Position numbers and translations under genes: made by a program. The notes beneath the pieces are model-generated. The model was not told where the DNA came from and made no database searches. It saw nothing but the letters and a program-made list of their open reading frames with translations. Positions 5,158-23,780 of a DNA stretch of 45,569 nt are shown piece after piece. Source of the DNA: a virus. Position 1 is the first letter of the stretch; each line of letters begins with the position of its first letter. Where the stretch lies: the IMG/VR virus record IMGVR_UViG_3300033182_000507, positions 1 through 45,569 of that record; one strand, written 5' to 3'.

Positions 5158-5263
5158 ACATGTCTGGGGAAGTAAGGGCAAATTGCCTACACATATTGCA
5201 GACCTATTAGACTCCACTGATTATCAACTCACCTCATCATGTTCAAAGAAGGACAGTCAGTAA
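5072..5263 (+). CDS. Hypothetical protein, 63 aa
   Basis: ATG 5072 gives a product beginning MTLPSETIVKVELSHQQVSI and continuing LRALIIQYKHVWGSKGKLPTHIADLLDSTDY, a beta strand followed by amphipathic helices, more protein-like than the overlapping frame. The C-terminus (SSCSKKDSQ) overlaps the next gene by 25 nt. No family recognised. It is probably co-transcribed with its neighbours. Confidence 0.55.
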   Translation: MTLPSETIVKVELSHQQVSILRALIIQYKHVWGSKGKLPTHIADLLDSTDYQLTSSCSKKDSQ

Positions 5264-5424
5264 CTTACAAAGGAATGAGTGGGTTTGTGAACTTCATCGA
5301 TGAAGATTACATCACCATTTGTTTCAAGCAGTATGCGTCCGATGCAGTACACGGAGAGACCTATTGTTGCCTCTTGGTGTACCCTAACGAGCACGACCAA
5401 GTGTATGTCCTCGACAGTAAGTAA
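5239..5424 (+). CDS. Small beta-rich cyanophage-type protein, 61 aa
   Basis: The product begins MFKEGQSVTYKGMSGFVNFI and continues with strands (DYITICFKQYAS and CCLLVYPNEHDQVYVLDSK). The pattern of a glycine turn followed by strands resembles a small SH3-like barrel that I recall as common in T4-like cyanophage early regions. This is recollection and fold reasoning, not a search. It is the last gene before about 600 nt of non-coding DNA, and a weak hairpin follows its stop. Confidence 0.7.
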   Translation: MFKEGQSVTYKGMSGFVNFIDEDYITICFKQYASDAVHGETYCCLLVYPNEHDQVYVLDSK

Positions 5425-5451
5425 GTGCCCTCTGAGTGTCTCTGAGGGTGC
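5425..5451 (+). terminator. Weak hairpin after the small-gene train
   Basis: GTGCCCTC (5425-5432) can pair with GAGGGTGC (5444-5451) through six Watson-Crick and two G-T pairs, with an 11-base loop. It directly follows the TAA at 5422-5424 but has no U tract, so termination is uncertain. Confidence 0.35.
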
Positions 5452-5719
5452 TCTGAGTGAGTGTTATGAAATCAATAAAATACCTTAAAAAATATAGTTG
5501 CGTGTTTTGTTCATTGAGTGATAAGTGTGTTAAAAGTGTGTTCCGTGAGTGTCAGTGAATCCGTTGTAAATGTCTCCAGTGAGTGTTATTAAGTCTTCTC
5601 TAAATGTCTCTGAGTGATGTTGACTAAGCGAGCGTACTATGGACCTCGCAGTTTGTCAAGTATTACCCCCAAAAAAGTATGAAATCCCACACAGGACCAA
5701 TGAGACCTACTGAGACACA

Positions 5720-5748
5720 TTGCACCTCTGCCTATACCATGCTATAAT
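5720..5748 (+). promoter_or_regulatory. Sigma70-type (early) promoter
   Basis: TTGCAC (5720-5725), a 17-nt spacer and a perfect TATAAT (5743-5748) form a good host-type promoter. The transcript would start near 5755 and cross about 270 nt without a gene before the AbrB-like ORF at 6029, so either the leader is long or a non-coding RNA is made. Confidence 0.65.
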
Positions 5749-5818
5749 GTGAGAGCATCACACAGGACAGCAAATGACAGGCAGTTAACTAACAGCAACT
5801 CACAGTCAATCTGAGACA

Positions 5819-5870
5819 CTCTGAGTATCACTGAGGGGGACCTACATGCAGTGCTCTGAGTATCATTGAG
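5819..5870 (+). repeat. Two-copy 17-nt direct repeat
   Basis: CTCTGAGTATCACTGAG (5819-5835) and CTCTGAGTATCATTGAG (5854-5870) differ at one base and are offset by 35 nt. Each lies next to a TGAGACAC-type motif. Paired sites downstream of a promoter suggest protein binding or RNA structure, but no function is shown. Confidence 0.6.
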
Positions 5871-5967
5871 ACACAGTGTTTTCCGTTGTTATGTGTTGCG
5901 TTCCTGCGGGCGATGCGGTTTAAATTCAATGGGTCCTTCTAACCTACAACGAACCAAATTCGAGAGA

Positions 5968-5977
5968 GTGATATCAC
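5968..5977. promoter_or_regulatory. Palindrome upstream of AbrB-like gene
   Basis: GTGATATCAC is a perfect ten-base palindrome ending 51 nt before the start of the small AbrB-like gene. It could be an operator. This is inference from symmetry and position only. Confidence 0.3.
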
Positions 5978-6028
5978 GCTAATAAAAAAAAATTTCCATA
6001 TATAAAATTGACTCACAGGTTTCATAGA

Positions 6029-6208
6029 ATGGAAAAAAAATCTCACAGGATCAAAACAACAATAAGGTTCGACCCAGTTTCTGATGAGTATGTTGTGAGT
6101 TTGCCTGAGAGTTTCTGTAATGAACTCGATTGGTATGAAGGCACAGAGATCATGATGAATCTCGATGCCGATGGAGTCTTCCTAGAGGAGGAATACGAAG
6201 ATGAATGA
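6029..6208 (+). CDS. AbrB/MazE-like small protein
   Basis: The start is ATG 6029; the frame extends back to a TTG at 6008, but that offers only a poor alternative. The 59-residue product has the order expected of an AbrB/MazE swapped-hairpin domain: basic first strand (HRIKTTIRFDP), then YVVSLPESFCNELDWYEGTE with the typical 'xLPxxxxxxLxWxxGxx' pattern, then a final strand (IMMNLDADGVFLEEE). Such domains usually bind DNA as dimers. In phages they may be regulators or antitoxin relatives, and no toxin partner is evident. It overlaps the next gene by eight bases, and GAGGAGG (6185-6191) near its end is that gene's ribosome site. Confidence 0.65.
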   Translation: MEKKSHRIKTTIRFDPVSDEYVVSLPESFCNELDWYEGTEIMMNLDADGVFLEEEYEDE

Positions 6209-6365
6209 CACGATCTATCATGTCTACGATGAGGATAACAAAGTCGTCGCTCATAGTCTCAGTGATGAATCTCTTGCAGAGAAAATTCTGAGTGATGAGA
6301 TTGATTTTGCGGATCATCAAATCGTCGGAGTAAAACAAGAAAAATTCAAAGAGGCGTCGTATTGA
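6201..6365 (+). CDS. Hypothetical protein, 54 aa
   Basis: ATG 6201 is preceded by GAGGAGG (6185-6191) with nine bases between. An ATG at 6205 in another frame is a worse choice because it gives a short basic product. The protein begins MNDTIYHVYDEDNKVVAHSL and continues SDESLAEKILSDEIDFADHQIVGVKQ, a compact beta-helix-beta pattern. It is acidic and probably cytoplasmic. Its stop lies inside the -35 box of the promoter for the next gene. Function unknown, but linkage to the AbrB-like gene suggests co-expression. Confidence 0.65.
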   Translation: MNDTIYHVYDEDNKVVAHSLSDESLAEKILSDEIDFADHQIVGVKQEKFKEASY

Positions 6366-6390
6366 CGCACCTACATAATACTGTTAGAAT
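6362..6390 (+). promoter_or_regulatory. Sigma70-type promoter of glycosyltransferase-like gene
   Basis: TTGACG (6362-6367) and TAGAAT (6385-6390) are separated by exactly 17 nt, and the stop codon of the preceding gene lies within the -35 box. The predicted start site is close to 6397, 17 nt before the ATG at 6414. Confidence 0.6.
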
Positions 6391-6413: not shown

Positions 6414-7166
6414 ATGGCTAAAGGATTTACTGTAAAAGCGAAAGCACCTGAACCGAAAGAACAAGAGTGGGATTACGATAAGGCACGGGAGATGCTTCGT
6501 GGCAAAGCAATCGTCTTCTGCTTGCCTGGTCGTGGTTGCTCATATCAATTCATGAAGTCGTTCTTGCAACTGAGTTTCGACTTGGTGCAAATGGGCGCAA
6601 GTATTCAAATCTCCCAAGACTACAGCAGCATGGTGAACTTTGCTCGTTGTAAGTGTCTGGGCGCAAATGTCCTTCGTGGACCCGACCAGATTCCCTGGGA
6701 CGGCAAATTGAAGTACGACTATCAACTGTGGATCGACTCGGATATCGTCTTTAACACTGAGAAGTTCCTGCAACTCGTTCTGCTCGACAAGGACATCGCT
6801 GCTGGTTGGTACATGACTGAAGACGGTCGTACCACCTCTGTAGCACACTGGTTGGACGAAGGCGACTTCCGTAACAACGGTGGCGTCATGAACCATGAGA
6901 CTGGCGAAACCATGTCTAAGCGTAAGAAGCCCTTTACGGTTGACTACACAGGTTTCGGATGGGTGCTCATCAAGCACGGCGTCTTTGAGAACAAGGAGAT
7001 GAAGTATCCCTGGTTCGCTCCCAAGATGCAAGTCTTTGAGTCTGGTGATGTTCAAGACATGTGTGGAGAGGATGTGAGTTTCTGTCTCGATGCTATCGAA
7101 GCAGGATATGAGATTTGGTGTGATCCCCGTATCAGGGTTGGTCACGAAAAGACTCGGGTTATCTGA
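6414..7166 (+). CDS. GT-A type glycosyltransferase-like protein
   Basis: The 250-residue product has an N-terminal basic tail, then AIVFCLPGRGCSYQFMKSF near residue 31 (a nucleotide-sugar-side strand), SSMVNFARCKCLG near residue 67, and LWIDSDIVF around residue 104, a DxD-type metal and nucleotide-sugar site. A later VDYTGFGWVLIKHGVF segment and the C-terminal EDVSFCLDAIEAGYEIWCDP with VGHEK have the ED...GhxIwxDP...GH layout of family-2-like GT-A enzymes. It probably transfers a sugar to an unknown acceptor (phage protein, DNA or host glycan). There is no membrane segment. Its codons are clearly richer in G+C than those of its neighbours, and it has its own sigma70-type promoter, which suggests separate acquisition or strong expression. 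Confidence 0.75.
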   Translation: MAKGFTVKAKAPEPKEQEWDYDKAREMLRGKAIVFCLPGRGCSYQFMKSFLQLSFDLVQMGASIQISQDYSSMVNFARCKCLGANVLRGPDQIPWDGKLKYDYQLWIDSDIVFNTEKFLQLVLLDKDIAAGWYMTEDGRTTSVAHWLDEGDFRNNGGVMNHETGETMSKRKKPFTVDYTGFGWVLIKHGVFENKEMKYPWFAPKMQVFESGDVQDMCGEDVSFCLDAIEAGYEIWCDPRIRVGHEKTRVI

Positions 7167-8739: not shown

Positions 8740-9138
8740 ATGGCTGAGTCTAACTCACGGGCGTTTAAGGACATTGATTTGTCTTTTAAAGCGCATCCTG
8801 TTACGGGAGATCTACCTGTTCTCAAGAATGAGAAGGCGATTAAGCGTGCTGTTAGGAATTTAGTGCAAACAATTGTAGGAGAACGACCATTTGCGTCCAA
8901 TATTGGGACGGATGTGACTCGTTCTCTCTTTGATTTTGTAGATTATGGTTCTGCAGGAGTGATTTCTCAGCAAATTGTTGATGTTTTAGCTGGTTTTGAG
9001 GGGAGAATTGCCAACACAAAGGTTCAAGTCAACCCAAGTCCAGACGACAATTCATTTGATATCAGAATCACCTACGATATTGTCGGTGAAAGTTTTGATA
9101 GTCAGGCATTCGAGTTTATTTTAGAGTCAACTAGGTAA
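8740..9138 (+). CDS. gp25: Baseplate wedge protein gp25
   Basis: The 132-residue product has the same length as T4 gp25. Its conserved core VGERPFASNIGTDVTRSLF (residues 46-65) corresponds to the T4 stretch containing SRPFDPEFGCDL. gp25 belongs to the widespread lysozyme-like baseplate family also found in contractile injection systems (TssE relatives). It joins the gp6 dimer in each wedge and helps trigger sheath assembly. There is no catalytic lysozyme signature. gp6 follows after four bases, as in other T4-like cyanophages. Confidence 0.93.
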   Translation: MAESNSRAFKDIDLSFKAHPVTGDLPVLKNEKAIKRAVRNLVQTIVGERPFASNIGTDVTRSLFDFVDYGSAGVISQQIVDVLAGFEGRIANTKVQVNPSPDDNSFDIRITYDIVGESFDSQAFEFILESTR

Positions 9139-9142
9139 AAAA

Positions 9143-11062
9143 ATGCCCTCTTTTAAGTACACAAACCTAGATTTCGACCAGATTAAGCAGTCGATCAAAG
9201 ATTACCTAAGAGCAAACTCAGATTTTTCTGATTTTGACTTCGAAGGATCGAATATGTCGATTCTGCTGGACGCTTTAGCATATAATACTTACATTACGGC
9301 ATTCAATAGCAACATGGTTGCCAATGAATCCTTCCTAGATTCAGCAACTTTGAGGGAAAATGTCGTATCTTTAGCAAGAAATATTGGATATGTACCTAGA
9401 TCGCGCAAAGCTGCGGAAGCGATCATTGATTTTGACTTCAAATTCCAAGGAAACTCCACTACAGTAACTCTCAAGAGCGGATTGGTTGCTGTTGGATCCG
9501 TAAATAATACTTCTTATGTGTTTTCGATCCCAGAAGATGTAACGGTAAGCAGTCCAATTGATGCTGGGGAGGTTGCTGGCGCGAATCCTAAGAGAACTGC
9601 TACATTTTCTGGTCTAACTGTCTATCAGGGCACATATTTAACTAAGCAGTGGACTGTAAATGGCAGCAGTGATCAAAGATTTTTGATTGAAAACTCTTTT
9701 GTTGACATTGATACCCTTAGAGTCACTGTTAGAAAGTCTGGAGCATCTGCTGGACTCTCTTTTTCTAAAGTAGATAACATTATTAATGTAACTGGCAACT
9801 CAAATATCTACCTAATCCAAGAAGCAGCAAATGAAACTTATGAATTGCTGTTTGGTGACGGACTTTTTGGTACAAAATTAGAAATTGGTGATACTATTAG
9901 CATTTCTTACATCATAACTGATGGAAAGGAAGGAAACGAGGGTAAAAATTTCGCATTTTCGGGAAATATCGTAAATGATGCTGGAACAAGCATTGCACCG
10001 TATCAACTAGCAACCGTAACGACCTCTCAGAGCGCCCGTAATGGGTCTGATATCGAGTCTGTTGACTCTGTTAGGTACTTTGCCCCTAGAATGTACTCAG
10101 CGCAGAACAGGGCGGTCACACCACGCGATTACGAGGCGATCGTTCAGTCGATTTATCCCAATACTGAGTCCATTTCTGTTGTTGGTGGAGAAGAATTAGA
10201 CCCACCAGAGTTCGGAACGGTTGTTTTGAGCATCAAGCCCAGAAATGGCACATTCTTGTCAGACTTTACCAAGCAGAATATCTTAACTAAACTAAAAAGT
10301 TACTCAATTGCTGGAATTAACCAGAGAATCGAAGATTTGAAATTATTGTATGTCGAACTTGATACTTCAGTCTACTACAATAACAGCATTTTTGATGATG
10401 CTAATGATTTGAAGGCACAAATTATTCAAGCATTGACAGAATATGGCGGATCTACCAATTTAAACAAATTTGGAGGAAGATTCAAGTATTCTGAAGCACA
10501 AAGAATCGTAGATCGTGCAAATCCTTCGATTACATCGAACATTATGCGCGTTAAGATGCGTAGAGACATGAAGTGTCTTATTAATCAAGTTGCACAATAC
10601 GAATTGTGCTTTGGAAATCAATTCCATATCTTACAAGGTGGTGGAACAATTAAGTCTTCTGGATTTACCATTCAAGGGAGCGAAGAAATCGTCTATTTGA
10701 CTGATATTCCTAGAGACGATGGTTTGTTTGGTGATATTGCTATCTTTAAACCTGCAAAAGTAGAAGGTGGTGACTCTGAGGTTGTAATTAAATCTGCAGG
10801 AATAGTTGATTACATAAAAGGAGAGATTATCATCAATGCAGTTCAGATAACATCAACTGTTAAGGGTAATGACATTGTTGAGGTTCAGACATTCCCAGAA
10901 TCCAATGATGTTATTGGACTCAAGGACCTTTATTTGACTCTAGACCTCTCAAACTCTCAGATAAATATCGTGAGAGACACAATTTCCTCTGGTCAGCAAA
11001 TTTCTGGCATTGGATACCAAGTCACTTCTAGCTACTCCAACGGATCGCTAATTAGACAGTAG
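9143..11062 (+). CDS. gp6: Baseplate wedge protein gp6
   Basis: The 639-residue product is close to the 660 residues of T4 gp6. It begins MPSFKYTNLDFDQIKQSIKD and contains the typical N-terminal segment MSILLDALAYNTYITAFNSN followed by NESFLDSATLRENVVSLARN (about residues 36-80), shared by gp6/BaseplateJ-type wedge proteins. A middle segment (ESVDSVRYFAPRMYSAQNRA, then VTPRDYEAIV) is the standard baseplate-J core. gp6 dimers form the continuous inner ring of the baseplate with gp25 and gp53. It carries no insertion of the GxGY module, unlike several of its neighbours. The gp7-like gene follows after one base. Confidence 0.93.
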   Translation: MPSFKYTNLDFDQIKQSIKDYLRANSDFSDFDFEGSNMSILLDALAYNTYITAFNSNMVANESFLDSATLRENVVSLARNIGYVPRSRKAAEAIIDFDFKFQGNSTTVTLKSGLVAVGSVNNTSYVFSIPEDVTVSSPIDAGEVAGANPKRTATFSGLTVYQGTYLTKQWTVNGSSDQRFLIENSFVDIDTLRVTVRKSGASAGLSFSKVDNIINVTGNSNIYLIQEAANETYELLFGDGLFGTKLEIGDTISISYIITDGKEGNEGKNFAFSGNIVNDAGTSIAPYQLATVTTSQSARNGSDIESVDSVRYFAPRMYSAQNRAVTPRDYEAIVQSIYPNTESISVVGGEELDPPEFGTVVLSIKPRNGTFLSDFTKQNILTKLKSYSIAGINQRIEDLKLLYVELDTSVYYNNSIFDDANDLKAQIIQALTEYGGSTNLNKFGGRFKYSEAQRIVDRANPSITSNIMRVKMRRDMKCLINQVAQYELCFGNQFHILQGGGTIKSSGFTIQGSEEIVYLTDIPRDDGLFGDIAIFKPAKVEGGDSEVVIKSAGIVDYIKGEIIINAVQITSTVKGNDIVEVQTFPESNDVIGLKDLYLTLDLSNSQINIVRDTISSGQQISGIGYQVTSSYSNGSLIRQ

Positions 11063-11063
11063 G

Positions 11064-14000
11064 ATGATCGAGACAAATTCGCCTTTAAGTCCCAGAATCA
11101 AGACTTATCAAGTAGTAAGTGAAACTGTACCCGAATTTGCAGTTTCAGAGAATCCTGCGTTTGTAGAGTTTTTAAAACAATATTATATCTCTCAAGATTA
11201 TCAAGGTGGACCATCTGATATCGCTGAGAATATTGATGCGTACATCAAATTAGATAATTTAACAACTGATGTAATCAGAGGCACCACAAATTTGACTGCG
11301 GATATCTCAAATTCCGCAGATGTCATTAATGTTACCAATACTGATGGATATCCTCAGCAAAATGGTCTCCTGAAAATAGATAACGAGATTATTACATATT
11401 CTGAGAAAACTAATACATCTTTTATTGGTTGTATTAGAGGATTTAGTGGAATTTCTGGTTACTCGGAAAATGCAGTAACCTGGAGTCAAACTATAGCATC
11501 TCCACACTCTTCTGGCACATCTGTTGTCAATGTGAGTGTTCTTTTTCTTCAGGAATTCTATAAAAAACTGAAGGCAATGTATACTCCTGGTTTGGAAGGA
11601 GTAACACTATCTCCAGACCTCGATGTAAACAATTTTATCAAAGAAGCAAGAAGTTTATATGAAGCAAAGGGAACCGAAGATTCCTTCAAGATTCTTTTCA
11701 AAGCTTTATTTGGAATTGAACCTAAAATCAATGATCTTGAGAAATATCTGATCAAACCATCATACGCAAACTATATCCGCAGAAAAACTATTTCTGTGGA
11801 GTTGATTTCTGGTGATCCTAGTGGTTTGATCGGTGAAACCCTATTTCAAGATGATGATCCAAATAATCCAAATTATAATGCTGCATCTGGACCTATTTCT
11901 GAAGTCACTAACATCAGAGATAACTATTACAAAATTTCTCTGTTTACTGGTTTTGATGAGAGATCTCTGACTGATGGAACATTTAGAGTTGCTGGAAGAA
12001 CAAGAAATATTGGTGAAATTGGTATTGGAGCATCTGTAATTACAGTTGATTCCACTGTTGGATTCTCCAGTGTTGGTTCTCTTAAAATTGGAGATCCTAC
12101 AAACTCATATTATCAGACTCTTACTTACACTACAAAGAGTATTAATCAATTTTTTGGAATCAATCCTTTAGTTTCTACCACTATTCCAGACAACAGCAAA
12201 ATATCTGCTCCCAATGTTGTCTATGGATACGAGCAAGGAGATACTTCGAAGGAAGTAGTCATGAGGGTAACTGGTGCCCTTAGTAAATTTAATAGCAACC
12301 AATCTCTTCAAAACTTAGATGCGAACTCTTCAATTAGAGTAAAGAACTTAGGTAGATATATTGACAATCCTGAGAATGACAAGAGTTACGAGGAAATTTT
12401 CTTCAATTCTTGGATTTATAACACATCTGCTCGCTATTACATTGATTCTTTCTCTGGATCGAATTTTGTTCTTGAAGGAACTATTGATAAATCCAGTCTT
12501 AGAAAAAATGATAGTGTTCAAATTCTAAAAAGAGGAACTACTGAACTGGTTGCTGACAATTTAGTTGTAACTGGAGTAAATGCAGTTACAAGCACCATCT
12601 CTTTGTCTGGAACAATTCCAACATTAGACCCACTAACTTTATACGATGTAAGAAGAAAGCAAAAGAAAGCAGTTTCAACTGTTGTTCCTTTGATCGGTGG
12701 TCAAGAGCAACTTCTTACTGATGTTAATAATACATACATCGTTTCGGAGAATGAATCTGAAAGCGGTAAGAGAGAAGGATTTGTTGCTTCTAGTTCTCTT
12801 CCTAGTTACCCAATCACAACTGATAAGATTCTCGCAAAACTTGTTAATCCTTCTCTTGCATTAGGAAACTGGCAGGGTTATTCTAGCGTAGAAAACGCTT
12901 ATAGTATTATCTCTTTCTCCAATCCTGTTCCCTTTAAGACTGGAGAGCAAGTATATTATGCTGCAGGACCAGGAACAATTGCTATCGGTGGTCTTGAGCA
13001 AAAAGACTATTTTGTAAAGGTTCTGAGTTCACCCAACCAAATTCAACTTTTTGCATCTAGAGCATTTATTAAAGCAAATCTTCCTGTATATTTTACTCCC
13101 CCAACTCAAACAACTGGAACTCACGATTTTATCCTTAGTTCTCAAGGCAATAGATCTCTTTTCCCTGCTAGACCGATTCGTAGGTTCATTCTTGAGCAAG
13201 ATCTTAAGAGTGGAAAGGAAGAGCAAACAACATCAGAATTTACATCTGATGGCAACACTGGAATGCTTATTAATGGTGTTGAGATCTTAAATTATAAGAC
13301 TTCGGATGTAATTTACTATGGTGAAGTAGAATCTGTTGATATTTTGTCTGGTGGATCTGGGTATGATGTACTTCATCCACCTAGCATCACAATTAATGAT
13401 TCAAATGTAAGTGCCGCAAATACTGCAGCTGCTTTAGCAGTTGTATCTGGCAAAATCGAAAACATCGTTGTTGACCCAGTAAATTTTGATATTGATAGCG
13501 TAGTTAGTGTAGAAATTTGGGGTGGTAATGGTAAAGGTGCTAGAGGTAGAGCAGTAACAGAAGAAAGATATAGAGAAATTTCTTTCTCTGGTATTACCAC
13601 CTTATCTGGAGGAGATGTCAATGCTACAAATGATGTATTTACTTTTGATGATGATCACAACCTTCTGACTGGTGCAAGAATTGTCTATGACAATAATGGA
13701 AATTCTAATCTTGGAATTGCTACCACTGGATCTTCAAAGGAAGAACTAACTTTGATGAGTGGTCAGGATTATTATGTCCATGCAAATTCCAACAATTCAA
13801 TTTCTCTCTACTACACCAAGAATGATGCTATTCTCGGGATTAGTAGTATTCAAATTAGCGAAGATGCCGCTGCAGCAAATACTGGTCTTCATATTTTTAG
13901 AACATATGAGCAGAAGACATCTATTGGTAGAGTAAGCATTGAGGACCCAGGCGAAGGATACACTAACAGACATCTTATTGTCAAATCGGTTGGTGTCAGC

Positions 14001-17000
14001 ACTTCAAGAGACTTCATTCAATTTACAAACCATGGTTTCTCTAGCGGAGAAGTAATCAACTATACCTATGATACTACTGGTATTACTGGATTGAGTTCTA
14101 CAAAACAATACCAAGTAATCAAACTTGATAATAATCGTTTTAGGTTAGCAGAAGCTGGAAATAAAGGAGATGTAGAACCTACAACTACAAACTATGATAA
14201 AGGTATTTACCAGTTCTTAGATTCCCCTGGTTCTGGATACCAAAGGTTCTATTATCCCGAGATTCAGTGTAGAATTACTGTTTTAACAGAAGATCAAAGA
14301 GAAAGACAGTTAACTGCTACACCTATTGTTAGAGGAGAAGTAGTAGAGTCAATTATCTATGAAAAAGGATCTGGATACGGATCAGAAATTGTTAATTTTG
14401 AGAATCCTCCAACAGTTTTTGTTCCTAAGGGATCTCTTGCACAGATTGGAATCATTATGAGCAATGGCAAAATTATTTCTGCCTTTGTTCTTGCTGGAGG
14501 ATCTGGATATACTGGTCCCCCAGATCTTATTGTCGAAAGCACAACTGTTGGAGCAGGAGGTGGCGTTCTTAGAGCAGAAGCTGCTAATGGAGCAGTTACA
14601 GGTGTAAAGATTATTTCTAGTGGTGGTGGATATGAGTCTGCAACGACTTCGGTCAGAGTCAGTCCTCCTGGAAATAATCTAAAACTCAGAACTTCTCTTA
14701 GATCTATAGAACTTAATAAGGCATACAGTCTTAATCCAACTCAGTTGACATATCTGTCACCTGTCCCATCTGGACTTGCTGTAAATTACATTGGTTATGG
14801 AAACTCGATTAGAAACTTCTTTGGTGACGATGGATCTGGACACTCTCCCATCATTGGTTGGGCATATGATGGAAATCCTATTTACGGCCCATTTGGATTA
14901 GAAGATCCGAACAACATTCAGTCTGATGTCAAGAGGTTGGAGTCCAGCTACGAAATTGTTCCCACAAATATTTCAAACAGACCTCCAGTATCAACATATC
15001 CATACGGATCTTTTATTGAGGATTATGTTTATACTGGATCTGGTGATCTTGATGAACATAATGGCAGATTCACTAAAACACCCGAATTTCCAAATGGCAT
15101 TTATGCATATTTTGCCACTGTAGATAATCTGTTTACTCCCCAGTTCCCATACTTTATTGGAAATACTTATAGAAGTTCTGCTATCTTAGGTAACACTGTT
15201 AGTGGACTTCTGAGCGATCAAGTTAATTTTGATTTTGAAGACTCCAAGTTAGTTAGAAATACTTTCCCATATAATTTGTTTGGTGACGGAAAAGCATATG
15301 ATTATGTTTTCCAACCTTATAATGAAAACAATCAAGTGTCTACTCCAGACAAACTTGGCGTTGGATCTATAACATCTATTGATGTTTTGGCACCAGGAAG
15401 CGGATATTCTGTAAATGATCAAATTGTATTTGATGAAACCACAAGTAATGGTGGCGGACTTTCTGCAGAAGTTCAGAAAATTTATGGAAAAACGGTTGAT
15501 AGAGTAACTAGTGATGTTACAATTTTCAATACCGTACCAATGGAGTATGGTAGAAATGGAATTGTATTTAATGTAACTCCATATCACGAATTCCAAACCA
15601 ATGATACTGTAGGTATTAGTGGAATTTCAACATATGTTAAGGGATTAGAAGGATATCATCTAATCGATGCTCCTTTATACAAGACTAATCTTGTTGATGC
15701 TGGATACTCTGGAATTATTACTGATCTTCGTGTTGATTATGTTCCTACAGTAGTTTCTGCTGGAGATTCTATTGGTATTGGAACTGAAATCATGAGAGTT
15801 CTGAATGCCTTCCCCAGTGAAAAAATTGTTAGAGTTGAGAGATACGCTGGATTTACCACAGCATCTGCTGGAGCAGCAGTAACTTATTTCAACAGCAAAT
15901 TTACAGTCCCATTGACTGAAATTCCTCTGTTCGAATCAAGATTCCAAGATATCTACTACTTCAACCCCAAGGAAGCAGTGGGTGTAGGCACCACAGTTGG
16001 ATTCTCCACATCGGTTAATGTATCTCTTAATGGAGTTACAAAAAATAGATCTATTATTACTAGATCTATTTTCTTGGAAAATCATTCTCTGAAAACCAAC
16101 GATATTGTCACATTTGACACTCGCGGAAACTCCGATATCTTTGCTACTGATTCAATTAGTCCGTATACGACCCCTAGCGCCCTCTCAGGCAACTATTATG
16201 TCGTAAGGAAGACCAAGAACACCATTGGCATTAAGACCGCCCCAGAGGGTCCAGAACTGTTCTTTACAAACACAGGTGATGATCAGGCAAATTACTCATT
16301 CACCACAAATTATGATCAAGAAACTGCAAAAATTGAAAGAAGTGTTCTGACAGTTGTTTCTACCGAAGATCATGATCTTTCAGTTGGTGATAAAGTCAGT
16401 CTCACAGTTCGTCCTGGTCTTGCTACTGGAATTGGCGCTTCTACAACTGCTGTCGTCAAACTTCTTGATGGTCAGTTGATTGTCAATCCAATTGGAATTC
16501 CCACCACTGGTATTAACACATCAACAAACATTTTTACAGTTAATGATCACGGTCTTGACACTGGATTTAAAGTTCTGTTGTATGGTGCTGCAGGAGTTTC
16601 TACTGCTCTGCCTGATGGATTGGAGCAGAGAACTTACTTTGTTCTGAAAATTGATAACGATCAATTCCAGTTAACAAATTCTAAACAGCAACTTTTCTTA
16701 GATCCCCCCGAGGTTGTAAGTGTAAATGACTTTGGTGTTGACGGACAAACATTAAATCCAATCAATCCCCCAATCAAAGTAACTAGAAGAAACAATCTCG
16801 TATTTAATCTTAATGATCCCACTTTAAGTGGATCTAAACTTAATATTTTCTATGACAATAATTATTTTAACGAATATGTTGGTACAGGGACCACAGATAG
16901 TCTTGAAATCGTTGGAGTAGGTACAGTTGGTATTGGAACGACAAATCCCCCAGATGAACCAACAAAAACCATTATTTTCAATAAACTTCTTAGAAATGAA

Positions 17001-20000
17001 CTCTATTACGCTTTAGAAGTTGGTGGATACATTTCTACCGCTGATAGAGATGTTTTTAATCACACCAAAATCATTTATGTTGATAGTGCATTTAATGGAA
17101 ACTACACTATATCTGGTGTAGGATCAACCACATTTGAAGCTACTTTAGTTAATGATCCAGAATCTTCTGGTTATCTCTCTGCTGATTGCGATGAGTTGTT
17201 CTATACAACGACTTCTATTGGAGCAACTGGAGGTATTGCAAAGGTAAGAGTAAATAACAATGGATTTGGATATCAGGCATTCCCCGCTGTAGTTTCTATT
17301 GGAAATAGTGGTCTTAGTGCTGAATTGAAGTTAAACAGCACAGACATCAATCGTCTTGAGTCGGTTACTGTACCGACAGATGTCTATGGTTATCCATCCG
17401 ACAATACACTGAAACCAGATGCATTCTTACCTAGAGTAGTCAAAATCAAGAACGCTGACAAGGTTATCGAAGCAGATGTAACTTTCGGTGGTAGATCCTA
17501 TCTCAATGCGCCTTCTTTGGCATTGTATGATTTGACTACTGGCGAAATAGTAAATAACGGTCTGATTACTTGCGAATTAAGCGATTCTGCTGTTAATAGC
17601 GTAGAAGTTGTAGTTCAACCAAGAGGTCTGACAAATAATAATTATGGACTTGCTCCTCTGAGAAATAGCAACGGTATTTCTATTATTGAAGCATTCTCTG
17701 ATGTTGGAGTCTTGACATGCAAAATTACCACACCTATTTTGGGTTATGTGGATGAACCATTTAGTACTGGAGAGATTGTATATCTTGAAGGAATTGAATT
17801 TAATAATGATGGTGATGGATTTAACTCTGGAGACTACAAGTTTGCTGACTTCGCAATTACTGATTATAACTCCGCAGTAAACCCGAGACAGGTAACATTT
17901 ACATATTCTGGTCTGACTACAAATGTTGGAACAGGTGCTACAGTACGACCTGGATTCGGTCAAATTGTAAAATCTACCGATCTTGCCAGATTTACAGTTA
18001 CTAAGAAGTTCTCAGAATTTTCTCAAAACGAGACTCTTAAGAGAAATGATGATTTGAAGACAGATCTCATCATGAGATCTATCAATACTGCTACTGGAGA
18101 AATGGTAATCGAGGGTTCTAGACCTCTGGAACCAGATGATCAACTTGTTGGGACAAATAGTGGAGACCGCGCAGAAGTAGATGTAGTTCAAGAATTTGAT
18201 GGATATTTTAATATTTCTGCAACTATTGATGCAAATCTTGGTTGGTCGGACAATATTGGTTTGATTGGTGATAATAATCAATTCTTGCCTGATAATGATT
18301 ATTACCAGAACATGTCTTATGCTATTGAAAGTGAGAAGACATACGATGATATCGTCACATATGTGAACAATATCGCACACCCAGCGGGTATGAAGAACTT
18401 TGCCAACACTCAAATTCTTTCCGTTGGTGATGCAGGCGACTCTACTGGTCCTGCGGACGATGCTGGTGGATTTGTTCTTGACTTCATTTCTGATCCTCTA
18501 AGAGTAGACGCAGTTTATGGATTTGACTTAGCTAGAGATGTAGATGCTGCTGATAATGTTTCTAAGTTTGTTGAATTTAGATCCACAAGACTGTCTGATT
18601 TCATCTTGAATAAAACCAATAGGGTCCTTGTTCATGATGATATCAGTCCCCAGTTTGTTAGCAATGAGTCTAACGATCTGAGTGATGATAGAACTATCGC
18701 AGCTGCAGTTGCGGGAAGACAGTTCTCTAGATATCTGGTACAAACAACTCATTCAGCAGAGAACCCGATAAACAACCAGTATCAACTTAATGAATTGATC
18801 ATGGTTGTCTCTAACCAAAATACATATCTCCTACAAAAATCGTATGTTAATAACAACAACAATGCGGGTCTTTCTACTGGTTATGCAGAGTTCTTCTCCT
18901 TCTTCAATGTTAATGAGAATCAGACAGAACTAAGAATTAAACCTTATGAAACTTTTGATACTGACTATGACATTAAGTGTCTCCAGCAAGGTTTTGCATC
19001 TGATGTTGGTATTGGATCTACTAACAGTGGAAATGTAGTCAACACTTCTGTAAACATTATTGTTGGAACTGCAACTACAGCAACAGTTGTTGGTTTTGCT
19101 ACAACTACTTTTGTTGGTGGAATTGGACACTTCTTGGTTGTTGATAAAGCAACTAATAAGATTGATTATCATGAATTGGCACTTCAGACTGATGGTGTTG
19201 ATACCTACTTGACTGAACTGGCGACATTCAACACAAGACAGAGTTTGGGTGGTCTGTCTGGTCCCACATTTATGGGTACATTTACTTCCAGTATTGAAAG
19301 TGGTGTTGTTAAGATTAACTACATTCACTCTAATTTGGATGCAGTGGATGTTAGATGCAAGTTTGTTTCTTTTGAGAATGTTGGTCTTGGCACAACTAGC
19401 GTTAGACACTTTAATCTTGAGTTTACTCCTGAGAGAACAGAAAGATCTGCGAGAATTGTTGTTGGCGCTTCTGCAACAACAGGAATTGCCACCGTTGTTG
19501 GTGTTTCCAGCAATATTGACTTGTCCTTCAAGTCAACGGTACATGTCTCTTACGGATCCACACAAACCCTGCACCAAATTTATGTGCTCTCTGATCCAGA
19601 GAAACAAGACACATATCTGTCTCAAGGACCTATTGCTGCAGTTGGAACAACAACTGGAATCGGAACATTTGGTGCCGAGTTCTCTGGTGGTAAGGTAAAT
19701 CTTGAGTTCTATCCAGATGCAGGCGTATCTGGAATGGTCAGCATCTTCTCTTACAACGAAATTATCTATAAAGATCTTGATCCTAATGGAACTCTTGCTG
19801 GTATCGGATCCTTCGATTATGGAAAAGTATTTGAGAATGTAACTCAAAATACTTACTTAGGTATTAACAACAGAAACATTAGAGAATTTGATCTGACTTA
19901 TCAGGGAATTCCGATTTATGAGCGCGATCTTAACCCTCAGAACCCCAACCAAATTAACTATGGAACTGGTTTAATTAGTTTCCAACACTTCTTCTCTAAC

Positions 20001-23000
20001 ACCGAACAGGTAACCTACACACCAGACTCTAATATCGTTGGTATTGCTGCTAGTGCTCTGCATTATGTAACTGGATATGGTTCTACAGAACTTCCTTCCA
20101 CTGTTTATATTGTTAAAAACAATAACAGTCAATTCTTTATCTCAACATCTCTCACTGATGCTAGAGCAGGTATCGCTGTCACCTTCCAACCTGGAACTGG
20201 ATCTGGTAACAAGCACAGATTTACAATGGAGAAGAGAGATCAGAAGACTATCATTGCTATCAGTGGAATTGTACAAAAACCAATCACATACACTCAAATC
20301 ACATATGATCTTGATGTCCCCGCTAACGGTATTGTCACATCTCTTGCACTGAGCGGACTTAGCACAATTACTTCTGGAGATCTTCTGAAACTTGAAGATG
20401 AATACACCATCGTTAAAACCGTAGGTTTTGCTACTACATCTACTGGACCTATTACTGGTATTGGTACATGGAGTATCGCTGAAGTTGAGAGAGGTGCTGT
20501 AGGAACTGCTGCAACGGACCACGCTGCTGGAGTCACTGGAAGAATTCACAGAGGTGCTTTCCAAATTCTTAACAGTAAAGTTCACTTTACGGATGCTCCT
20601 CTTGGTGGTGACCTTGGACTTTCCGATCCTAGTAACCTTACATACCCCAGAGCAACCTTTGGCGGAAGAACTTACCTGAGAGTTGATTATGATACAAACG
20701 AACTGTTTGATGACTTCTCTGATCAGTTTGATGGACTTGAAAGTACATTCCCATTGACTGCTATTGGTGCTGCGGTAACAGGTATTGGTACTACTGGAGG
20801 AAACGGTGTTCTCTTTGTTAATGGAATTTTCCAAGCACCGTTTGGAGAGAACAATGAAGGCATTTCTAACTTCAAGATCATTGAGGATCCCGTATCTACT
20901 GCTGCTAGTGTTCAATTCACTGGTATTACATCAGTAGGATTTACGGATCTAATTATTGATGAGGATGATATTAACCAAAATCAGCTACCTAGAGGCGGTA
21001 TCATCATCTCTGTTGCATCCACTCCTGGACTTGGATATGCTCCGTTTGAAGGTGCATCTGTAAGATTGGAGGTCGGAACTGGCGGAACAATCACCAATAT
21101 CATCGGAGTTTCGACTGCAGGACCTTCCGTAAATGTCACTGAGGCATTCTACGATAATAAGACTGGTATTATGACAGTCACAACTGCTACACCGCACGGT
21201 CTCCTTTTGGAAGATCAGGTTAAGTTAGTTGGTTTGGCGTTCACCTGCCCTGGATATGGTGCAACATATAGCGTTTATGACTTCCAGTACGACTACTCTA
21301 CTGGTATTTCTACAATCTTTACTGTAGGTGATCATGGTCTTACTGCTGGTGATGATGTTAAACTAGCATATCTTGAATTCGAATGTCTCTCTGGGGGAAG
21401 AAGTTACAGCATAACCAACTTCGTATATGATGAGAGCACAGGATTAAGCACGGTTACCGTTTCTAGTCCCATTGCACTAAATGTAAGTGACATTGTTAGA
21501 TTGGATAATATTGGATTCACTTGCTCTGCTCCTCATGCTGGTATCACTACTACAATCTTCCCAGATGGAACACAGGGATTTGAATATGCAGTCACCCAAG
21601 TAAATTCTACAACCGAATTCGAACTCAATGTTGGTATTTCTACCATTGCACACACATATGATTCTGGCGGTACTGTATTTGCTGGATTGACTACTACAAC
21701 ATTCCCAGACGGAACTCAAGGATATTTCTACCATGTTGATTCTGTTGGAACTACAACTTCGTTTGTAACTAATGTTGGTATCTCCACTATCTCTCATTTG
21801 TATGTGAGCGGTGGTCAAGTTCAAACTGGTATTACTACCAATATCTTCCCAGATCACGATGATCCGTTTGCTGTTGTTGGTTTCATTTCAGCAACTCAAT
21901 TTAAGACCAATGTTGGACCTTCGACATTCGGACACACTTATGTAAGTGGCGGTACTGCTGCCCAGTGGCACCCCCTCACCTTTGGTTCTGGATACAGAAC
22001 AGGTATTGGCACCATTGGCATCGCTGTAACCTCTTCTACGGGCACTGGAGCGACTATCACTGCCGTTGTAGGCGCTAGTGGATCTCTGGTATTCTCTGTT
22101 GTTGGTCCTGGCACCAATTACACTGCTGATGATCTTGTTCTTCCCCCAGAACCAAATGGAGAAAACCTCAATGTCATTGGTTTGTCTAGAATTGGTCTTG
22201 GTGCAACTACTGTAACAGGTGTTGGTTGTTCAGTCTCTGTTGAAATTGCAGGAGTTTCTACTGCTACTGGAATTGGTTCCACTTACTATGAAGTTGCTAA
22301 GTGGGAGTTCTCCAAGAAAGGTTATGGATTTAAGCGTGGTGATGTATTCACTGTTGCTGGACTCTCTACTGATCCTGCAGCAGGAGACAACTTCAAAAAC
22401 TTTGAAATCGAAGTTGTTGATGTATTCACAGACCAAGTATCAGCATGGCAGTTTGGTAATATTGATTATCTTGATAATATCAAGAAATATCAGAATGGAG
22501 ATCAAAAGAGATTTATTCTCGAATATCAAAGATCTATCGTCAGTTTTGAAATTGATAGAAATGATGCTGATTCTAAGGAAATTGACCTTTCCGCAGTTCT
22601 CCTTATCTTTATCAACGGAGTTATTCAGCAACCTGGAGTTAACTATTCGTTCACTGGTGGTTCTGTTCTCGAATTTACTACTGCACCTACCCCAGAAGAT
22701 AATGTTGTTATCTTTTTCTACAGAGGAACAATCGGACAGGATAGTTTCTTGTTTGATGTCAATGAGGTAATTAAAGTTGGTGATGAGGTAAAACTCGAAA
22801 AGAGTTCTGAGGTAGAACTCAATAGAGTATCTCAGACAGTTGATAACTTTGCTCAAGAGGAAAATAGAATTGTCAAGAGAATTGACAGTGCTGTTACTAT
22901 AGAAACTCCGTTCTATCAAGGAGTGGGTATTAGTAATGATAATTACAAACCACTTACTTGGATTAAACAGAAAAAAGATATTCTGATTGATGGTTCTGTT

Positions 23001-23780
23001 GTTAGTAAGGCAAGAGATTCTATTGAATCTCAAATTAGTCCTATTGCTAGCGTAATCGGTGTTGTAAGTACAACTGACGCATTCCTCTTTGTTGACTCTG
23101 TTGCTCTGTTCAAAGATACTGATGGCGGTTTGACTGAGAACTTTAATCTCACATATATTGCAGAAGTTGGATTTGGAACTACCGCAGTTTCTGGTATCAA
23201 CTACGAGGATATGACTGGCATCAATCCCCTGGTTGCTAATGTCCAAGGTTATATTGGTGTTGTTACTGGCATCAGCACATGTCCTGGAATCGGAACTGAT
23301 CTTGCTCTCTTGATTCAGTTTGATGTTCAAGAGTATGTAAATGATGGAAATGATCCTACTGGACTTGGAACCAACTATCCGTTCAGACTCTATGGAACTG
23401 GAATTAATACTGCAGGTATTGCTATAACATCAATTGACACACATGATAGTGATATTGTTGGTACTAGCACATATTATGGTGATGGTATTTACTATGCTTC
23501 TGCTATTTCTTTCGTAACTGGATCTGGAAGTCGTCTCGGAATCATTACTGCAAATATTGCTTCTTATACTGACACTACTGGATTTGTTGGAGTTGGATCT
23601 ACTGCTTCCCCATATGCATATTTCAGCTGGGGTAGATTTGGTGAAGTCGATCGTGCCCCAAATGCAGTCTATGCAAATGTCAAGGGATTGAATTATGATC
23701 CACAATTGTCACAATATCCTATTGTACAAAGAAGAGGTGTTGGATTGAGAGGGACGGGGGGTCTTCCAAAGCTATTATAA
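11064..23780 (+). CDS. gp7: Giant gp7-like baseplate wedge protein, 4238 aa
   Basis: Position between gp6 and gp8 identifies it as the gp7 counterpart, although T4 gp7 has only 1032 residues. The N-terminal 230 residues look like the conserved anchor (FVEFLKQYYISQDYQGGPSD; LFLQEFYKKLKAMY; EARSLYEAKGTEDSFKILFK). The rest is mostly Gly/Thr/Ser-rich beta modules: repeated GxGY units (nt 13351-17262), repeated 'HGLxxGDxV' units (from nt 13630 to about 21350), a YHYH-type motif GHSPIIGWAYDGNPIYGP at residues 1259-1276, and tandem 46- and 48-residue repeats near nt 21135-21962. It probably forms long baseplate arms and may bind host surface or other fibres. The reading frame is intact throughout. 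Confidence 0.75.
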   Translation: MIETNSPLSPRIKTYQVVSETVPEFAVSENPAFVEFLKQYYISQDYQGGPSDIAENIDAYIKLDNLTTDVIRGTTNLTADISNSADVINVTNTDGYPQQNGLLKIDNEIITYSEKTNTSFIGCIRGFSGISGYSENAVTWSQTIASPHSSGTSVVNVSVLFLQEFYKKLKAMYTPGLEGVTLSPDLDVNNFIKEARSLYEAKGTEDSFKILFKALFGIEPKINDLEKYLIKPSYANYIRRKTISVELISGDPSGLIGETLFQDDDPNNPNYNAASGPISEVTNIRDNYYKISLFTGFDERSLTDGTFRVAGRTRNIGEIGIGASVITVDSTVGFSSVGSLKIGDPTNSYYQTLTYTTKSINQFFGINPLVSTTIPDNSKISAPNVVYGYEQGDTSKEVVMRVTGALSKFNSNQSLQNLDANSSIRVKNLGRYIDNPENDKSYEEIFFNSWIYNTSARYYIDSFSGSNFVLEGTIDKSSLRKNDSVQILKRGTTELVADNLVVTGVNAVTSTISLSGTIPTLDPLTLYDVRRKQKKAVSTVVPLIGGQEQLLTDVNNTYIVSENESESGKREGFVASSSLPSYPITTDKILAKLVNPSLALGNWQGYSSVENAYSIISFSNPVPFKTGEQVYYAAGPGTIAIGGLEQKDYFVKVLSSPNQIQLFASRAFIKANLPVYFTPPTQTTGTHDFILSSQGNRSLFPARPIRRFILEQDLKSGKEEQTTSEFTSDGNTGMLINGVEILNYKTSDVIYYGEVESVDILSGGSGYDVLHPPSITINDSNVSAANTAAALAVVSGKIENIVVDPVNFDIDSVVSVEIWGGNGKGARGRAVTEERYREISFSGITTLSGGDVNATNDVFTFDDDHNLLTGARIVYDNNGNSNLGIATTGSSKEELTLMSGQDYYVHANSNNSISLYYTKNDAILGISSIQISEDAAAANTGLHIFRTYEQKTSIGRVSIEDPGEGYTNRHLIVKSVGVSTSRDFIQFTNHGFSSGEVINYTYDTTGITGLSSTKQYQVIKLDNNRFRLAEAGNKGDVEPTTTNYDKGIYQFLDSPGSGYQRFYYPEIQCRITVLTEDQRERQLTATPIVRGEVVESIIYEKGSGYGSEIVNFENPPTVFVPKGSLAQIGIIMSNGKIISAFVLAGGSGYTGPPDLIVESTTVGAGGGVLRAEAANGAVTGVKIISSGGGYESATTSVRVSPPGNNLKLRTSLRSIELNKAYSLNPTQLTYLSPVPSGLAVNYIGYGNSIRNFFGDDGSGHSPIIGWAYDGNPIYGPFGLEDPNNIQSDVKRLESSYEIVPTNISNRPPVSTYPYGSFIEDYVYTGSGDLDEHNGRFTKTPEFPNGIYAYFATVDNLFTPQFPYFIGNTYRSSAILGNTVSGLLSDQVNFDFEDSKLVRNTFPYNLFGDGKAYDYVFQPYNENNQVSTPDKLGVGSITSIDVLAPGSGYSVNDQIVFDETTSNGGGLSAEVQKIYGKTVDRVTSDVTIFNTVPMEYGRNGIVFNVTPYHEFQTNDTVGISGISTYVKGLEGYHLIDAPLYKTNLVDAGYSGIITDLRVDYVPTVVSAGDSIGIGTEIMRVLNAFPSEKIVRVERYAGFTTASAGAAVTYFNSKFTVPLTEIPLFESRFQDIYYFNPKEAVGVGTTVGFSTSVNVSLNGVTKNRSIITRSIFLENHSLKTNDIVTFDTRGNSDIFATDSISPYTTPSALSGNYYVVRKTKNTIGIKTAPEGPELFFTNTGDDQANYSFTTNYDQETAKIERSVLTVVSTEDHDLSVGDKVSLTVRPGLATGIGASTTAVVKLLDGQLIVNPIGIPTTGINTSTNIFTVNDHGLDTGFKVLLYGAAGVSTALPDGLEQRTYFVLKIDNDQFQLTNSKQQLFLDPPEVVSVNDFGVDGQTLNPINPPIKVTRRNNLVFNLNDPTLSGSKLNIFYDNNYFNEYVGTGTTDSLEIVGVGTVGIGTTNPPDEPTKTIIFNKLLRNELYYALEVGGYISTADRDVFNHTKIIYVDSAFNGNYTISGVGSTTFEATLVNDPESSGYLSADCDELFYTTTSIGATGGIAKVRVNNNGFGYQAFPAVVSIGNSGLSAELKLNSTDINRLESVTVPTDVYGYPSDNTLKPDAFLPRVVKIKNADKVIEADVTFGGRSYLNAPSLALYDLTTGEIVNNGLITCELSDSAVNSVEVVVQPRGLTNNNYGLAPLRNSNGISIIEAFSDVGVLTCKITTPILGYVDEPFSTGEIVYLEGIEFNNDGDGFNSGDYKFADFAITDYNSAVNPRQVTFTYSGLTTNVGTGATVRPGFGQIVKSTDLARFTVTKKFSEFSQNETLKRNDDLKTDLIMRSINTATGEMVIEGSRPLEPDDQLVGTNSGDRAEVDVVQEFDGYFNISATIDANLGWSDNIGLIGDNNQFLPDNDYYQNMSYAIESEKTYDDIVTYVNNIAHPAGMKNFANTQILSVGDAGDSTGPADDAGGFVLDFISDPLRVDAVYGFDLARDVDAADNVSKFVEFRSTRLSDFILNKTNRVLVHDDISPQFVSNESNDLSDDRTIAAAVAGRQFSRYLVQTTHSAENPINNQYQLNELIMVVSNQNTYLLQKSYVNNNNNAGLSTGYAEFFSFFNVNENQTELRIKPYETFDTDYDIKCLQQGFASDVGIGSTNSGNVVNTSVNIIVGTATTATVVGFATTTFVGGIGHFLVVDKATNKIDYHELALQTDGVDTYLTELATFNTRQSLGGLSGPTFMGTFTSSIESGVVKINYIHSNLDAVDVRCKFVSFENVGLGTTSVRHFNLEFTPERTERSARIVVGASATTGIATVVGVSSNIDLSFKSTVHVSYGSTQTLHQIYVLSDPEKQDTYLSQGPIAAVGTTTGIGTFGAEFSGGKVNLEFYPDAGVSGMVSIFSYNEIIYKDLDPNGTLAGIGSFDYGKVFENVTQNTYLGINNRNIREFDLTYQGIPIYERDLNPQNPNQINYGTGLISFQHFFSNTEQVTYTPDSNIVGIAASALHYVTGYGSTELPSTVYIVKNNNSQFFISTSLTDARAGIAVTFQPGTGSGNKHRFTMEKRDQKTIIAISGIVQKPITYTQITYDLDVPANGIVTSLALSGLSTITSGDLLKLEDEYTIVKTVGFATTSTGPITGIGTWSIAEVERGAVGTAATDHAAGVTGRIHRGAFQILNSKVHFTDAPLGGDLGLSDPSNLTYPRATFGGRTYLRVDYDTNELFDDFSDQFDGLESTFPLTAIGAAVTGIGTTGGNGVLFVNGIFQAPFGENNEGISNFKIIEDPVSTAASVQFTGITSVGFTDLIIDEDDINQNQLPRGGIIISVASTPGLGYAPFEGASVRLEVGTGGTITNIIGVSTAGPSVNVTEAFYDNKTGIMTVTTATPHGLLLEDQVKLVGLAFTCPGYGATYSVYDFQYDYSTGISTIFTVGDHGLTAGDDVKLAYLEFECLSGGRSYSITNFVYDESTGLSTVTVSSPIALNVSDIVRLDNIGFTCSAPHAGITTTIFPDGTQGFEYAVTQVNSTTEFELNVGISTIAHTYDSGGTVFAGLTTTTFPDGTQGYFYHVDSVGTTTSFVTNVGISTISHLYVSGGQVQTGITTNIFPDHDDPFAVVGFISATQFKTNVGPSTFGHTYVSGGTAAQWHPLTFGSGYRTGIGTIGIAVTSSTGTGATITAVVGASGSLVFSVVGPGTNYTADDLVLPPEPNGENLNVIGLSRIGLGATTVTGVGCSVSVEIAGVSTATGIGSTYYEVAKWEFSKKGYGFKRGDVFTVAGLSTDPAAGDNFKNFEIEVVDVFTDQVSAWQFGNIDYLDNIKKYQNGDQKRFILEYQRSIVSFEIDRNDADSKEIDLSAVLLIFINGVIQQPGVNYSFTGGSVLEFTTAPTPEDNVVIFFYRGTIGQDSFLFDVNEVIKVGDEVKLEKSSEVELNRVSQTVDNFAQEENRIVKRIDSAVTIETPFYQGVGISNDNYKPLTWIKQKKDILIDGSVVSKARDSIESQISPIASVIGVVSTTDAFLFVDSVALFKDTDGGLTENFNLTYIAEVGFGTTAVSGINYEDMTGINPLVANVQGYIGVVTGISTCPGIGTDLALLIQFDVQEYVNDGNDPTGLGTNYPFRLYGTGINTAGIAITSIDTHDSDIVGTSTYYGDGIYYASAISFVTGSGSRLGIITANIASYTDTTGFVGVGSTASPYAYFSWGRFGEVDRAPNAVYANVKGLNYDPQLSQYPIVQRRGVGLRGTGGLPKLL
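21135..21533 (+). repeat. Tandem 46-residue repeats in gp7-like protein
   Basis: Three units begin VTEAFYDNKTGIMTV, VYDFQYDYSTGISTI and ITNFVYDESTGLSTV, starting at 21135, 21273 and 21411. The first two end in C-x7-YS, and all three contain a 'xDxVxLxxLxFxC' stretch. The first two are 46 codons and the third is cut to about 41 where the next repeat type begins. Confidence 0.75.
21537..21962 (+). repeat. Tandem 48-residue repeats in gp7-like protein
   Basis: Three units start at 21537, 21681 and 21825 with AGITTTIFPDGTQG, AGLTTTTFPDGTQG and TGITTNIFPDHDDP. They end in NVGISTIAHTYDSGG, NVGISTISHLYVSGG and NVGPSTFGHTYVSGG. The period is exactly 144 nt for the first two, and the third is 138 nt. 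Confidence 0.85.

Follow-up and report, generated by a model that had tools for sequence, protein, structure and literature searches.

T4-like cyanophages are among the most abundant viruses of the ocean, and to our knowledge the start of their replication is reportedly covered by a single prediction, made for Syn9. We know of no motif common to the T4 origins. T4 oriE comprises direct repeats at even spacing (12-nt iterons) and an early promoter; at oriF and oriG, synthesis is primed from an R-loop in an AT-rich unwinding element that accompanies a promoter (PMC3016281). The T4 record annotates the oriE point 1.7 kb upstream of gene 6 and oriF next to gene 25; the primer RNA of oriE is complementary to the transcript of the local gene. 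Cyanomyoviruses are without motA (PMC2984593), and the same paper cites a prediction that Syn9 has a single theta origin. The described conserved noncoding elements of cyanophages include the cis-regulatory and antisense RNAs PhotoRC-II, wcaG and CfrI (PMC9602691).

Here we compare with these systems a noncoding gap in the genome of a T4-like cyanophage. Our leading reading, to which we assign a probability of about 0.4, is that the gap may be an origin at which transcription primes replication, similar in type to T4 oriE and oriF.

The noncoding gap and its conservation

The window, i.e. the whole stretch of DNA analysed, is a 45.6-kb virus record, a fragment of 45,569 nt (IMGVR_UViG_3300033182_000507). 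The gap (5425-6028, no strand assigned) follows a run of tiny + strand ORFs and is flanked by ORFs at 5239-5424 and 6029-6208, both on the + strand. Farther downstream are a glycosyltransferase-like gene (6414-7166), gene 25 (8740-9138) and gene 6 (9143-11062), the last two named by comparison with annotated relatives. Gene 6 is followed directly by a single ORF of 4238 aa (11064-23780), and Sf-FS3 and S-PM2 have a very large ORF of about 3000 codons in a similar position. The initial annotation had described a gene-free gap of 600 nt, and this description holds: the gap measures 604 nt, contains no ORF of at least 60 aa and belongs to the longest intergenic stretch of the window when genes are called at at least 60 aa.

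Relatives were gathered from IMG/VR, 80 stretches via the glycosyltransferase and 24 via the repeat pattern. The gap could be aligned in many of them at 68-87% identity, and conserved blocks were distinguishable from drifting sequence in the alignment. The order of the elements is repeats, an AT-rich block, a leftward promoter-like site (PL), a rightward promoter (PR), a second group of repeats and the AT-rich block D; PL and block D had been overlooked in the first reading of the gap. Conservation of the gap in T4-like cyanophages argues against simple gene decay, the fallback explanation offered earlier. We read the gap as a control locus of T4-like cyanophages that is noncoding and acts in cis. 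The earlier suggestion of a control or replication site therefore stands as far as a conserved noncoding DNA control region is concerned, but the GC-skew shift proposed with it does not, as there was no consistent extremum at D in eight genomes. The skew test is weak because all genes run one way. In Syn9, the detrended skew had its maximum at 44.5 kb and its minimum at 101.7 kb, not at D.

The AT-rich block (5463-5512, no strand assigned) is 76% AT, contains conserved columns and lies downstream of PL in the leftward direction. When 30-bp stretches of the window are ranked by stability, it holds one of the six least stable, and two of these six fall within the gap. A reading frame over this block (5451-5553) encodes an IKYL-KY-CVF-like peptide in several relatives. 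A conserved micro-ORF was rejected, as the matches track DNA conservation and the IKYL.KY.CVF frame is shifted or stopped in relatives L004, L098 and L095. A small gene lies between the upstream promoter and D in L032 (there between PR and D), L002 (5664-5870), L065 and Sf-FS3; the window has none.

Block D in cyanomyovirus genomes

Block D (about 5880-6012, + strand) contains box 1, TTTAAA (5919-5924), the core TAACCTACAA (5940-5949), an A/T tract (5984-5995) and box 3, ATATATAAAA (5998-6007). The spacing between box 1 and the core is 25 nt in 40 of the 44 sequences and 24 or 26 nt in the others. An HMM built from roughly the final 130 nt of the gap and searched at E<=5 gave exactly one match in each of eight cyanomyovirus genomes, including Syn9, S-PM2, P-SSM4 and P-SSM2. 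The E-values were 7e-7 for S-PM2, 9e-7 for P-SSM4 and 2e-4 for Syn9, none of which is represented in the model. With a model made from metagenomic contigs alone, D ranked first in every genome, the weakest match being that in Syn9 (E=0.06), and reversed or Markov-shuffled genomes, used as controls, yielded nothing better than E=6.8. G001 does not provide an independent test, because its own D is among the training contigs.

D was found at 53.5 kb in Syn9, 69.1 kb in P-SSM2, 51.8 kb in P-SSM4 and 25.1 kb in S-PM2. In seven annotated genomes it is intergenic and lies 1.6-4.7 kb upstream of gene 25 (baseplate genes 25-6); cyanophage genes 25 and 6 are adjacent and just downstream of D. All 100 scanned contigs with the core 18-mer have one D, and 97 of them also carry the glycosyltransferase; in the other three, D sits near the contig end.

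The usual neighbour of D, in the window and in most lineages, is a gene for a small protein (6029-6208, + strand; 59 aa in the window, 58 aa in most lineages), which belongs to phrog_661, listed as of unknown function. PF04014 matched 11 of 18 homologues with weak scores (best E 1e-4) and did not match the copy from the window when searched alone; a PDB sequence search with the family gave no match. The predicted fold is beta-beta-alpha-beta-beta, and the top Foldseek matches were AbrB/SpoVT/MazE proteins (probability 0.96-0.99). The product is classed as an AbrB/MazE-like (swapped-hairpin) protein, a putative DNA-binding protein. D is retained where this gene is replaced and another protein is encoded downstream, as in Sf-FS3, S-SSM7, Bellamy and RB11-B.

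The initial annotation had also proposed an early non-coding RNA. In its structured form this proposal failed: RNAalifold predicted 0 pairs in D, the mean folding z-score was -0.3 to -0.4 over 48 sequences, and Rfam gave no match even at E<=5. An unstructured transcript from the gap is possible. D shows conservation at the DNA level, has no RNA structure and is kept whichever gene follows it, which makes an ordinary single-gene leader unlikely. D was likewise rejected as a late promoter of the T4 type, since its boxes do not match the late motif and lack strand bias, and D is present in a single copy. The late motif of these phages is NATAAATA-like and strand-biased (+:- 43:5, 37:1 and 36:5); in Sf-FS3 it takes the forms NATAAATA and CTAAATA (43:5 and 33:2). 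The duplex instability of D is extreme in some genomes and ordinary in others (80th percentile at 40 bp in Syn9; not extreme in P-SSM2).

Promoter-like sites and repeats beside D

PL (5631-5659, - strand) consists of TTGACA (5659-5654), a 17-nt spacer and TACGCT (5636-5631), followed by a conserved CGCTTAG. It is kept in 33 of 34 distinct relatives as TTGACA (TTGACG in one), exactly 17 nt and TA[C/T][G/A]CT, and in many of these relatives the 17-nt spacers are unrelated. Conserved hexamers at a fixed distance around a free spacer are the trace expected of a promoter, and we regard PL as a sigma70-like promoter-like site with an atypical -10, from which transcription would proceed leftward. Across the 1.64 Mb of eight genomes, the strict PL pattern has just two occurrences, each on the minus strand and upstream of D, at a distance of 210 nt in G001 and 3.1 kb in P-SSM2; among D-bearing loci, 26 of 97 have it. 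PL is directed into the end of the upstream gene, the nearby genes are oppositely oriented, and no conserved leftward ORF was found behind it. Such a site, pointing against all genes and without a conserved ORF behind it, is as expected of a primer or an antisense transcript. Contig L016 (IMGVR_UViG_3300044513_000486) ends in a long inverted repeat (50-200) whose fold-back point coincides exactly with PL; a second contig of that metagenome, L091, begins at the same base. This is probably an assembly artefact.

PR (5720-5748, + strand) consists of TTGCAC (5720-5725), a 17-nt spacer and TATAAT (5743-5748) preceded by TG, i.e. an extended -10; its RNA would be expected to start near 5755. PR was absent from a generic promoter scan because its -35 matches in only 3 of 6 positions. 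The extended -10 is kept in aligned relatives, and the conservation of PR lies mainly there. In several sister lineages, a perfect TTGACA-17-TATAAT occupies the equivalent place. A strong rightward promoter precedes D in about 28% of 116 distinct loci, which is no commoner than in other intergenic stretches, and a universal promoter before D was rejected because its frequency did not exceed this background. The strong promoter named in the initial annotation is therefore real by the measure of conservation, but it has a poor -35 and is lineage-specific. Another promoter-like site, TTGACG-17-TAGAAT with a TG extension (6362-6390), stands directly before the glycosyltransferase gene, and TTGACA/TATAAT-type sites precede this gene in many other cyanomyoviruses.

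The repeats were compared with 1000 dinucleotide shuffles of the 604-nt gap. TGAGTG occurs 7 times (shuffle mean 0.56, maximum 3), CTCTGAG 6 times (mean 0.06, maximum 2), CTGAG 9 times (mean 0.9, maximum 4) and TGAGACAC 3 times (mean 0.02, maximum 1), far above the shuffles, in agreement with the many TGAGTG copies reported before. The enrichment of TGAGTG is local, since the window as a whole shows none, and the repeats are one-sided, with zero copies of the reverse complements CTCAG and CACTCA in the gap. The 17-nt direct repeat reported earlier is also present (5457-5473 and 5579-5595, 88%), with a third copy at 76%. In cluster 1 (5430-5457, + strand), CTGAG starts at 5432, 5442 and 5453, in steps of 10 and 11 bp. 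Cluster 2 (5811-5871, + strand) has CTGAG at 5811, 5821, 5831 and 5856 and TGAG at 5867, in steps of 10, 10, 25 and 10 bp. Relatives repeat the 10-bp steps together with a gap of 24-26 bp between CTGAG copies, and a spacing of 10 and 25 bp like that of cluster 2 was found in L007, L096, L102, L004 and L010. Most of the clustered repeats therefore lie on one face of the helix. CTGAG arrays near D are confined to the clade of the window and absent in most other genomes. CTCTGAG as a genome-wide operator was rejected, as its enrichment near D was limited to this clade and, weakly and as CTCGGAG, Sf-FS3. The palindrome AGAGTGATATCACGCT (5965-5980) pointed out in the initial annotation is present in the window, but its palindromic form is not kept in relatives. 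In the genomes examined, D is the universal part of the locus, and PL, PR and the CTGAG repeats are lineage-specific additions.

Comparison with the T4 origins and alternative readings

A promoter opposing the genes, phased repeats, AT-rich stretches and a place upstream of gene 6 together resemble T4 oriE, and for this reason we favour an origin. As at T4 oriE, an early host-type promoter is predicted to be directed against the local late genes (PL, present as a conserved sequence in only part of the D lineages), its RNA would run counter to the local structural gene, and the D region lies upstream of baseplate gene 6. The resemblance to the T4 iterons is partial: CTGAG recurs in steps of 10-11 bp in the clade of the window, but most other genomes have no such array near D, and each CTGAG repeat is shorter than an iteron. 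The universal part, D, has no known counterpart in T4. Moreover, the T4 site lies inside gene 5 and the region of its leftward RNA encodes repEA and repEB, whereas the locus described here is noncoding and has no leftward ORF. The combination of a promoter and an AT-rich stretch at oriF and oriG recurs in the window, but the AT instability is not extreme in Syn9 and P-SSM2 and the promoter is not universal; unlike the promoters in the window, those of oriF (uvsY) and oriG are MotA-dependent middle promoters. An HMM comparison of D with the T4 oriE and oriF regions detected no sequence similarity. Because this homology test and the skew test were negative, the D region is not a demonstrated member of the oriE/oriF group and would at most work like these origins. 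Syn9, for which a theta origin was predicted, has one D, at 53.5 kb. D also differs from PhotoRC-II, wcaG and CfrI, being located elsewhere in the genome and having neither an Rfam match nor RNA structure.

If the gap is an origin, transcription by host RNA polymerase would begin early, from PL and/or PR, and the RNA would stay annealed as an R-loop in the AT-rich block at 5463-5512 and in block D, where it would serve as the leading-strand primer. Opening of the DNA or loading of the replisome would fall to a protein that binds the phased CTGAG repeats, the boxes of D with their fixed spacing, or both. All lineages would use D, with PL, PR and the CTGAG repeats added lineage by lineage. The broader claim is put forward only tentatively: D would be the origin from which all T4-like cyanophages replicate, with its sequence and place conserved throughout the group, while the divergent primer promoters and iteron-like arrays beside it would differ between lineages. 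Counting against an origin are the missing consistent skew extremum, the instability that is not universal, the promoters at background frequency, the presence of PL in 26 of 97 loci, the confinement of CTGAG to one clade and the lack of sequence similarity to T4 oriE and oriF.

The main rival is transcription control, which is a real possibility, if short of an even chance. The gap would then hold divergent early promoters, a phased CTGAG operator array and a 5' leader of ~270 nt that includes D, and would set the timing and level of the AbrB-like regulator and the genes following it; the AbrB-like protein may in turn bind back. The two promoter-like sites PL and PR, a repeat spacing close to one turn of the helix, as seen where DNA-binding proteins act cooperatively, and the putative DNA-binding protein encoded by the next gene are all in line with this. 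However, D persists beside an unrelated downstream gene in Sf-FS3, S-SSM7, Bellamy and RB11-B, its boxes show neither a match to the late motif nor the strand bias of that motif, the glycosyltransferase gene has a promoter-like site of its own (6362-6390), and PL has no gene to control. It is improbable that the product is instead an early non-coding RNA from PL and/or PR, for example one running antisense leftward over the small early genes. PL does face the end of the upstream gene and lacks a conserved ORF behind it, and S-PM2 makes the antisense RNA CfrI elsewhere (PMC2984593), but D has no conserved RNA structure or Rfam match, conservation is concentrated in the promoter-like and D blocks, and many lineages with D have neither PL nor PR.

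We rate as even less probable a packaging-start or recombination site at D, bordering a hypervariable region of small genes. IMG/VR contigs end within 500 nt upstream of the D core in 35 of 116 cases and downstream in only 3 of 116, yet these ends are scattered over 20-490 nt rather than falling on one base, and D was never next to terminase genes in the stretches seen. Scattered ends are better accounted for by assembly breaks at a hypervariable border that differs between strains than by a physical end, and a fixed genome end or packaging site was rejected. Least probable, and by our estimate very much so, is a decaying gene. The small gene between promoter and D in L032, Sf-FS3 and L065 and the peptide frame over 5463-5512 that is broken in L004, L098 and L095 suggest that parts of the gap may be gene remains, and one part may be the scar of a lost gene. 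PL, PR, the phasing of the repeats and D are nevertheless conserved as DNA across divergent phages; decay is contradicted for PL, PR and D by this conservation and could apply only to the stretches between them.

As a single-copy noncoding element with a fixed place in every genome examined, D offers a short and concrete target in culturable phages. If it acts instead as a transcription switch, it would still be a group-wide cis element. No Rfam family matches D, and the open-access papers searched contained no description of it; its novelty is provisional, the original Syn9 genome and T4 oriE papers lying outside this comparison. These genomes contain several conserved intergenic elements besides D, among them tRNAs. 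One further element, GCAAGTAAGCCGAC..CGGAACGGATCGTTCAT, was observed in S-PM2 (142256-142548), P-SSM2 (245025-245215) and S-SSM7 (220394-220542), and is possibly a known leader RNA of a photosynthesis gene.
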